Below, one piece after another: positions 28,809-31,423 of a stretch of 64,000 nt of DNA. The notes beneath the pieces were generated by a model. The model saw nothing but the letters and a program-made list of their open reading frames with translations. It was not told the DNA's origin and searched no databases. Both the position numbers and the translations under genes were made by a program. The stretch comes from Synechococcus sp. RedBA-s (GTDB taxonomy: Bacteria; Cyanobacteriota; Cyanobacteriia; PCC-6307; Cyanobiaceae). The stretch covers positions 1 to 64,000 of the forward strand of contig NZ_JAGQBF010000012.1 of assembly GCF_024345495.1 (NCBI RefSeq), read 5' to 3'. The first letter of the stretch is position 1, and every line of letters begins with the position of its first letter.

Positions 28809-29228
28809 TCAGCGCAGTCCCATGGCCCGACGCACCTGGCCGATGCAGGGCAGCCCGCTTGGGCAGAGCCGGATCAGCCGGCCATTGACCACGAAAGGGG
28901 TGTCGGCGCTTGAATCGGCCGAAGCTCTACTCGCCATGGGGGCTTCTGTTTCCCCTGAAAAGTTCCCCGAGGAGGTTGGGTCTGGGGTGCCGTCATTCCC
29001 ATTCCAACTGCTATCCCTACCGCCAAGGCCTTGGAGCCGGCCTTCGACCGATTGCAGCAGGTTGCCGTAGCCAGGAGCGGAGCCGCCCTGGAGGGTTCCC
29101 TGGATGGCCGCCGCTCCCGCCGCGTCGATCAGCGTCTGGCTCCTGGCCGCAGGCGCGACCACAAGCATCATGAGCACCAGCAGAGGTAACAGCGGCAACG
29201 GCAGCGGCAACGACAGTGGCGGTGGCAT
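28809..29228 (-). CDS. Small secreted hypothetical protein
   Basis: From ATG 29228 the 139-residue product has a proline/leucine-rich signal peptide (MPPPLSLPLPLPLLPLLVLM then MLVVAPAARSQ). A low-complexity middle rich in G, S and T follows, and a short conserved-looking end FVVNGRLIRLCPSGLPCIGQ with two cysteines. No domain is recognised. A longer frame to 29333 exists, but its extra residues precede the signal peptide. It lies next to thyX on the same strand, 59 bases downstream of it. Confidence 0.55.
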   Translation of the reverse strand: MPPPLSLPLPLPLLPLLVLMMLVVAPAARSQTLIDAAGAAAIQGTLQGGSAPGYGNLLQSVEGRLQGLGGRDSSWNGNDGTPDPTSSGNFSGETEAPMASRASADSSADTPFVVNGRLIRLCPSGLPCIGQVRRAMGLR

Positions 29229-29287
29229 GGCGGGGCTTGCAGAGGCTTTTGCAGGCACAGGTCGGCTCGGCAGATCGGCAGGGGTGC

Positions 29288-31378
29288 TCAGGGGGCCAGG
29301 CGCGCTTTGTGCAGCCGGGCTCGGCTGTACCAAGCAGCGAACTCAGGAGCCCACGCCTCCAGGTGGGGCCACATCAGGTCACAGAGCTGACGGATTTCGA
29401 GCTGCGCATCCAGCTTCGCGCGCAGGTCGAGGAAATGCAGAAACGCCCGCAGGCTGAAGCTCACCACGAAGTGCTGGCGGTAGTCGAACGGCAGGATGCC
29501 GCGGGCGTGCTCCTCGGCGAAGCCAGCATCGAGCAGGTCGCGGTAGCGCTCGGCGGCGGCACGGCAGAGATCGAGATCGATGACCCGCTGGGCGTCGTCG
29601 TAGAGGTACTTCTTGCCCTGGCGGTCGCTGTAGGCGCCAACAGGGCGTAGATAGAACACTTCTTCTAGGTCCAGTTCGCCATTAGCGGCCTGGCAGATTC
29701 TGTCGCCTGTGTAGCGCATCGAGTTGTGCACCACCAGGCCATTCGCCACGAAGTTGTGCCACGGCGCTTCCACTTCAAGGTCGTAGGTGGTCTGGGTGCC
29801 CAGGAACTCCACCTTCACCACAGTGAGCGGATGAGCGCGCAACTTGCGGCCTTGCGGGCGGGGTTTGCTGGCCCAGGCAGAGACCGGTGCGCGTTGCTCT
29901 CCCCACGCTTCGGCGAAAGTGGCTTCCTGATGATGCGCGTGGATGAAGGTATGGCAGGGCTGGCACAAGGTCACCAGGTTGTCGCTTGCCAACTCCAGTG
30001 ACGGATCGGCATAGACCGGCACTAGATGATGGGCCTGAAGTTGCTGGTTGCTGCCCCGTTGTCCGCACCGCTGGCAGGTGTAGTCGAAGCGCCGGTGAAT
30101 TTCGGGGGCGATCTGGCGTGTCCAGGCGCCGGTCAGCACCCGATCACTCGACACTCCCCCTTTCCAGAAGGGAGAAGCGGCTCCCCGTTTCGTGATTCGG
30201 TGGGCATGGGCGCGGCGTGCCTCACGTGAGGCGTCGCTGAGCTGAAGGGCATAGCCGGCTCGGTCTTTGTTCCATGGGGTCATCCCTTTGCGGAATCCCG
30301 GTGGGCGGCAGTTCAGGCTCAGCCTGTAGTGGTACACCCACTTCTTGATGGCCTCCACCGAGCAACCCGCCAAGGCCGCCATCTCATCGGCATTGAGGTT
30401 TTCCTTCAGCTTCTGCTCAAGCCATAGCCGCTGGCGATACAGCGCTTCAGGCTGGTGGTTCCAGGGTTTCTTGCCGGATTGAAAGCGAGTCTGGCGTTGT
30501 GGAAGCTCAATCTGGTGGCGCCGGGCCCATTCGCGGATCGTGATGGGTCTGCAGCCCACCTGTTCTGCCATTTCCTTCGCGGTAAGACCGGCAGCGCACT
30601 GGCGCTCTAGCCAGGACTTGTCGCGGTAATCGCCGGTGCCGGCAGCCACCAACCCGTTGGCGAGCACTTGAGCGGTGCGGCGGAAGCTGCGCACGTGGCC
30701 ATCGTTGCGAGTGACGAGGCCGACCGCCTCACCCATGGTCTGCCAGCCATCGGGCGTCAGCACACGGTGGTTGGTGGTGCAATCCAGTGTGCGTCCGTCT
30801 TCCATGGTGACGCGATACACCGGTTGCTCTCCGCTGCACATCACGTCCTTGATGTGGCTGGTCTGGAACAGGCCGGTGTCTTCGTTCAATACCCGGAGAC
30901 GCATGCGCTTCAGACGCTCGCGGCAGTCGCGGCGGTATTCACCAGGGGGCTCCCCCTGGCGGCCACGCACGGCCCGATGCCGCACGGCCTTCTCCCCATT
31001 CGCCCAGAGGTCATGCAGTTCAGCGATCGCCAGCTTGCGCAGCGCGCCGGAAGCCTGCACGAACGTGACCTGCGTGCTGCCTGCCAAGCACTGCACATCA
31101 AAACTCACGCCAACCCGATGGGTGCGCGCCTGCTGCATCACCGAATGGGGAAACCAGCCCACGTTGAGCACGATCTGGGCATGCTCCAGGGGGCCGTAGT
31201 GGCCGCGCTCGCCGGAGAGCAGGCGCTTGACGCAGATCTCGCCCGCCGTGCGTTCATCGGGCCATTCGGCGCGGTCAGCCGCGACGAACCCCTCGCTGTA
31301 GTCCTGGTGCATGGCGGCATAGACGCACTGCTGGGGGTTGGGAGTTGCGGCGATCAGCTCGACCCGGAAACGGTCCAT
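29288..31378 (-). CDS. thyX: Flavin-dependent thymidylate synthase ThyX precursor containing an intein
   Basis: The 696-residue open frame is ThyX split by an in-frame intein. N-extein residues 1-96 carry the substrate and FAD-binding start of ThyX up to QQARTHRVGVSFDVQ. C-extein residues 553-696 resume at SMRYTGDRI and continue to the usual end. Joined, they give a 240-residue ThyX with the intact RxHRxxxxSxxxxSMR signature, so dTMP is made from dUMP with FADH2 and methylenetetrahydrofolate only after protein splicing. No thyA is seen here. The frame is uninterrupted, so splicing is expected to restore function. Confidence 0.93.
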   Translation of the reverse strand: MDRFRVELIAATPNPQQCVYAAMHQDYSEGFVAADRAEWPDERTAGEICVKRLLSGERGHYGPLEHAQIVLNVGWFPHSVMQQARTHRVGVSFDVQCLAGSTQVTFVQASGALRKLAIAELHDLWANGEKAVRHRAVRGRQGEPPGEYRRDCRERLKRMRLRVLNEDTGLFQTSHIKDVMCSGEQPVYRVTMEDGRTLDCTTNHRVLTPDGWQTMGEAVGLVTRNDGHVRSFRRTAQVLANGLVAAGTGDYRDKSWLERQCAAGLTAKEMAEQVGCRPITIREWARRHQIELPQRQTRFQSGKKPWNHQPEALYRQRLWLEQKLKENLNADEMAALAGCSVEAIKKWVYHYRLSLNCRPPGFRKGMTPWNKDRAGYALQLSDASREARRAHAHRITKRGAASPFWKGGVSSDRVLTGAWTRQIAPEIHRRFDYTCQRCGQRGSNQQLQAHHLVPVYADPSLELASDNLVTLCQPCHTFIHAHHQEATFAEAWGEQRAPVSAWASKPRPQGRKLRAHPLTVVKVEFLGTQTTYDLEVEAPWHNFVANGLVVHNSMRYTGDRICQAANGELDLEEVFYLRPVGAYSDRQGKKYLYDDAQRVIDLDLCRAAAERYRDLLDAGFAEEHARGILPFDYRQHFVVSFSLRAFLHFLDLRAKLDAQLEIRQLCDLMWPHLEAWAPEFAAWYSRARLHKARLAP
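29723..31090 (-). mobile_element. ThyX intein with HNH homing-endonuclease domain
   Basis: The 456-residue intein starts with Cys (C97 of the precursor) and ends HN before the extein serine. This is the class 1 splicing arrangement: N-terminal block CLAGSTQV, block B TTNHRV (intein residues 105-110), and C-terminal VEAPWHNFVANGLVVHN. Between the splicing halves are two HTH-like repeats (around 170-195 and 232-256) of the NUMOD type. An HNH nuclease follows: CxxC at 339-342, HH at 354-355, CxxC at 376-379. All catalytic and splicing residues look intact, so it may be mobile. The insertion point is inside the ThyX active-site signature. Confidence 0.93.
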
Positions 31379-31423
31379 GGGGCTGCAGGGCAGGGGAGAA
31401 GTGGCGGTGGGCTCAGCGGTGGC

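Follow-up and report, generated by a model that had tools for sequence, protein, structure and literature searches.

The ThyX Precursor and Its Intein

The window (the whole stretch of 64,000 nt of Synechococcus sp. RedBA-s DNA analysed here) contains, on the reverse strand, an open reading frame (29288–31378) that encodes a ThyX precursor of 696 aa without internal stop. The precursor is interrupted by an intein of 456 aa (29723–31090, reverse strand; precursor residues 97–552), which is flanked by Q96 and S553. The N-extein (residues 1–96; 31091–31378, reverse strand) ends in THRVGVSFDVQ, and the C-extein (residues 553–696; 29288–29722, reverse strand) begins with SMRYTG. The Pfam family Thy1 (7e-38, split into two halves) and the NCBIfam thyX equivalog TIGR02170 (1.4e-50) match both exteins and are complete once these are joined; together with 91–95% identity to the uninterrupted ThyX of congeners, this confirms the identity of the host protein. 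As its +1 residue, the intein uses the final serine of the ThyX signature, which reads RxHRxxxSxxxxSMR (RTHRVGVSFDVQ^SMR), i.e., one residue fewer than the RxHRxxxxSxxxxSMR given in the original prediction.

The prediction of an intact class 1 intein inside this signature is borne out by the open frame, the splicing residues, and the profile matches. The N-terminal splicing half (intein residues 1–150; 30641–31090, reverse strand) starts with C1 (CLAGSTQV) and contains the block B motif TTNH, while the C-terminal half (intein residues 410–456; 29723–29863, reverse strand) contains HNF and ends in VVHN (H455 and N456), followed by Ser+1; all residues expected of class 1 are thus present. Intein_splicing (Pfam, 1.6e-9) and intein_Cterm (TIGR01443, 5.9e-6) exceed their cut-offs, and intein_Nterm (2.2e-4) scores 22.2 bits, slightly below its cut-off of 24.5. 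An AlphaFold2 model for which 45 members of the family were used (mean pLDDT 84, pTM 0.53) agrees with these assignments in that its splicing domain, including the strands of the N-terminal half, is matched in the PDB by DnaB, RecA, and DnaE inteins. The Ssp and Npu DnaB and Mtu RecA inteins (1mi8, 4o1r, and 2in9) thus have a splicing fold in common with the ThyX intein; however, they reside in other host genes, and what was matched are mini-inteins or splicing domains that lack an HNH nuclease.

The precursor would be expected to self-splice through an acyl shift at Cys1, transfer to Ser+1, and cyclisation of the terminal Asn, yielding a ThyX of 240 aa. A search for thyA in the host genome (97% complete) found none, while the identical search matched 9 of 14 controls; because of this absence, ThyX is presumably the only thymidylate synthase of the cell, and splicing looks essential.

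The Nuclease Region

The region between the splicing halves contains two helix-turn-helix (HTH) repeats followed by an HNH core, as had been proposed. Repeat 1 (intein residues ~157–197; 30500–30622, reverse strand) gives a weak match to HTH_17, with model helices at 158–166, 171–178, and 182–191, and repeat 2 (intein residues ~220–260; 30311–30433, reverse strand) a weak match to HTH_28, with model helices at 221–229, 234–241, and 245–254. The repeats are real, each with three helices in the model, where they precede the HNH core; since pTM is only 0.53, the model does not reliably show how the nuclease is positioned against the splicing domain. The label "NUMOD-like" that had been attached to them is unsupported, as no NUMOD Pfam family matches at E ≤ 1. 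Repeat 1 is conserved in the full-length family described below, while repeat 2 is deleted in one relative (L126) and in many decayed forms.

The HNH core (29939–30076, reverse strand) matches PF01844 above its cut-off (1.4e-8) and retains all catalytic and zinc residues (CxxC, HH, N, CxxCH, and H), in agreement with the complete nuclease originally proposed. The HTH and HNH part also aligns, over precursor residues 249–477, with the phage HNH endonucleases of PHROG 8446 (9e-25); these share the HTH-plus-HNH architecture, but are described as an HNH endonuclease family and not as part of an intein. The same core matches the model of the IscB RNA-guided nuclease (NF040563, 5e-8), far below the cut-off, which probably merely reflects the common HNH type.

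A Family of Inteins at a Single ThyX Residue

Comparison with the thyX inteins of other cyanobacteria, which had been recommended, found relatives at the exact site across cyanobacteria. In the host family, 7 of 251 sampled genomes (the host included), representing six genera, matched; a larger search with the exteins pointed to five more intein carriers in genus g6, and a search with the entire precursor confirmed them. Scanning a single genome for each GTDB species yielded 131 candidates, of which 79 loci were kept, all cyanobacterial except for one from an actinobacterial metagenome-assembled genome (MAG). Every cyanobacterial ThyX intein readable within a single open reading frame is inserted at the identical residue (SFDVQ^S), and the window intein fits this allele by both its insertion residue and its homologous splicing domain. 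Suspected second thyX copies in G103, G143, and G278, indicated by extra matches, turned out to be merely weak fragments.

An alignment of 77 inteins (the window copy, 74 cellular, and two viral) showed identical boundaries throughout, and all 77 retain Cys1, the block B His, the penultimate His, and the terminal Asn. By our reading of the residue table for these 77 sequences, 40 (the window copy included) have both HTHs and the HNH, one of them (L123) without one zinc cysteine; 11 have a single HTH with a complete HNH; and 26 have a nuclease that is partly or wholly lost or lacks a catalytic residue, down to a length of 211 aa, with the splicing residues kept. Most of the loci L117–L195 thus resemble the window copy in insertion residue and splicing residues, and 39 of the aligned inteins besides it also share the two-HTH HNH nuclease, whereas the 26 with a truncated or damaged nuclease and the 11 with a single HTH differ from it. 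Cyanobacteria and their phages harbour at least 77 related ThyX inteins at this residue; the window element is not rare but a member of a family widespread at its exact site. Full-length relatives are 54–70% identical to the window intein; the sampled genomes, genome_contigs, and viral_contigs yielded no intein above 70%. In L126 (the same locus as G044), HTH repeat 2 is deleted and the HNH motif HH is changed to HQ in a frame that remains open; the sequence indicates a nuclease caught in decay.

Several comparisons point to transfer of the intein between relatives. In the intein tree, L118 and L124 form a fully supported pair that is absent from the ThyX tree, and inteins with one HTH are intermingled with two-HTH forms among close Nostoc ThyX sequences; both trees are quick trees with SH-aLRT support only. 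Intein dS is lower than ThyX dS for L117/L152, L118/L124, L119/L122, and L120/L119 (bootstrap 0.99 or more), but not clearly so for L120/L122, and it is higher than ThyX dS for L120/L123 and for both pairs that include the window copy. Among pairs with unsaturated dS, which are mostly between copies of other species, dN/dS is 0.09–0.15 for the HNH and 0.17–0.37 for the HTHs; within the family, the function of the nuclease is thus maintained by purifying selection.

A Divergent Tract around the Insertion

thyX is present in all nine genomes of the genus examined and carries the intein only in the window genome, being uninterrupted in all eight other congeners. With the intein removed and the flanks joined, the locus is 96.1% identical over 9.5 kb to that of a sister species (G035), with collinear genes on both sides. 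Identity to the sister is 96.2% in the flanks and 98.3% in the 3′ part of thyX, but falls to 85.4, 91.8, and 81.2% in segments around the insertion. Of 868 intervals of 440 nt, the one around the insertion has the lowest identity (87.0%; the lowest elsewhere is 92.3%), and mismatches number 56 of 431 positions at the insertion compared to 289 of 8810 in the background (p = 8e-17), from which a variable stretch between thyX and dcd (+430 to +800) was excluded. The edges of the tract lie at approximately −330 and +85, beyond which thyX is again 98.3% identical to the sister. We consider this a probable co-conversion tract, with a 5′ side (offset 0 to −330; 31091–31421) that is 85–92% identical to the sister, as compared to 96% in the flanks, and a 3′ side (offset +1 to +85; 29638–29722) that is 81% identical.

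In the 85 nt downstream of the intein, the window copy is 74–79% identical to the other seven congeners, which are 81–99% identical to each other; here the window copy, rather than the sister, is the stronger outlier. In the upstream segment from −330 to −110, the window copy is 98.1% identical to another congener (G102), as compared to 87.8% in the flanks, and the sister is also divergent, at 82–87% to all congeners. The 21 pairwise comparisons among the other seven congeners show no comparable drop: in most, these segments equal or exceed the flanks in similarity, and the comparisons that involve G076 are slightly lower in the downstream 85 nt, as in thyX generally. A search of 400 genomes of the family for a donor of the downstream tract found none, the best match being the sister species itself (87%).

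The tract looks like co-conversion accompanying a recent homing event: the nuclease would cleave the corresponding site of a thyX allele without intein, and repair on an intein-bearing template would copy the intein together with some flanking exon, which suggests that the window copy jumped in recently. We thus regard it as likely that the window holds a full-length class 1 intein, probably active, whose homing endonuclease is of the two-HTH HNH type; the window lineage most likely gained this copy after splitting from the sister species. The sequences themselves show the anatomy and intact residues, the empty congener alleles, a recombinant tract with the insertion at its centre, purifying selection on the nuclease of relatives, and transfer among these; splicing, DNA cutting, and the direction and donor of the event are what we infer. 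Because the sister is also unusual upstream, the direction of the event is not proven; the segment from −330 to −110 makes the sister look odd, and the tract may therefore partly reflect an exchange in that species.

The same observation favours a reading that we consider rather unlikely, namely that the intein is an old, vertically inherited resident and that precise replacement by an empty allele removed it from the sister and from the ancestor of the seven remaining congeners, leaving a mosaic tract. The deep branching of the window intein within the Cyanobiaceae intein clade, and its dS above that of ThyX in comparisons with relatives, are also in line with long residence, and by parsimony loss in two lineages is just one step worse than a single gain. 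However, at least two precise losses would be required, and neither the stronger divergence of the window copy in the 85 nt downstream nor the 98% identity of its upstream tract to G102 (against a background of 88%) fits this history well. Still less probable, in our assessment, is an intein that splices but whose nuclease is dead or dying, even though relatives at the same site display all stages of decay, including the L126/G044 copy with its open frame and without HTH2 and one catalytic His; the window copy keeps all HNH and zinc residues, both HTHs, and the open frame, and appears to have arrived recently. That the insertion is an assembly or MAG chimera could be suspected from a genome in 61 contigs and from the sharp tract edges, but this is very improbable given the frame preserved at both junctions, boundaries identical in 76 relatives, and flanking genes ~96% identical to, and collinear with, the sister on both sides. 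Recent gain of a probably active intein remains our preferred reading, and the original view of the element as a good candidate for active homing gains backing from the flank evidence, dN/dS, and the conflict between trees. The region that separates thyX from the dCTP deaminase-like gene (28900–29290) is only 76–78% identical or unaligned even against the 96% identical sister.

Relation to Known ThyX Inteins

In 2004, Liu and Yang reportedly described a Trichodesmium erythraeum (Ter) ThyX intein, in a paper (cited in PMC4649490) whose title also mentions a group II intron in that gene. The Ter element is likewise an intein in a cyanobacterial ThyX. A mini version of the Trichodesmium ThyX intein splices to ~100% in E. 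coli (PMC3620165). Since that intein is published and splices, the kind of element found here is already known. In the parts of the open literature on cyanophage and cyanobacterial ThyX inteins and homing that were accessible, no paper on the SFDVQ^S allele could be identified. As far as could be checked, three findings are new: the series at one residue across the phylum, its copies in phages, and the window genome's recombinant tract.

A single residue of a probably essential gene displays the whole homing cycle (empty, freshly invaded, intact, decaying, and mini), with stages that span the phylum and its phages, and the sequence evidence for recent homing is unusually direct. The window genome and its sister form a close invaded/empty pair for measuring homing, co-conversion length, and target recognition; the nearest second pair is L123 and the empty L096, 95% identical over thyX.

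Phage Copies and Neighbouring Insertion Sites

Viral contigs also carry the SFDVQ^S allele. A mini-intein of 234 aa is present at this site in L012 (and L197); the L012 copy matches the mini-inteins of two hosts of Planktothricoides type (L172 and L174) at 93% identity, its ThyX is 88% identical, and it adjoins phage-like genes, which is most simply explained by a phage having acquired the whole gene. Another viral contig (L011) carries an intein of 352 aa that is nearest to Planktothrix (66%), yet its ThyX is nearest to Leptolyngbya-type sequences. Most other viral thyX genes have an empty site.

ThyX inteins that are related or similar, but lie five residues upstream (RHRxx^S[FY]), were found in L191, L199, L038, and L238 (StAugustine gp63); their sources are an actinobacterial MAG, two viral contigs (one of them of 212 kb), and a mycobacteriophage. 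Insertion thus makes use of both of two adjacent serines within a single ThyX motif. Mycobacteriophage C1 ThyX (TdS) inteins have been listed (PMC5050341). These inteins and StAugustine gp63 resemble the window intein in the HNH and the C-terminal splicing half (~34% identity across the final 136 residues), but the gp63 intein is inserted five residues upstream (HRIA^SYNEESGRY), is smaller, and does not include the two HTHs. A tentative possibility is that thyX-carrying cyanophages act as shuttles, with intein-bearing phage thyX homing into the sole thymidylate synthase gene of the host, and that the family has shifted between the two serines, which lie 15 nt apart.

A different intein-like ThyX insert was observed in seven viral loci (L014, L015, L019, L020, L029, L033, and L062) at a third site, GHYG^CYS; this insert ends in GN before CLEHP, and its GFFxGDG segments look like those of a LAGLIDADG-type nuclease.
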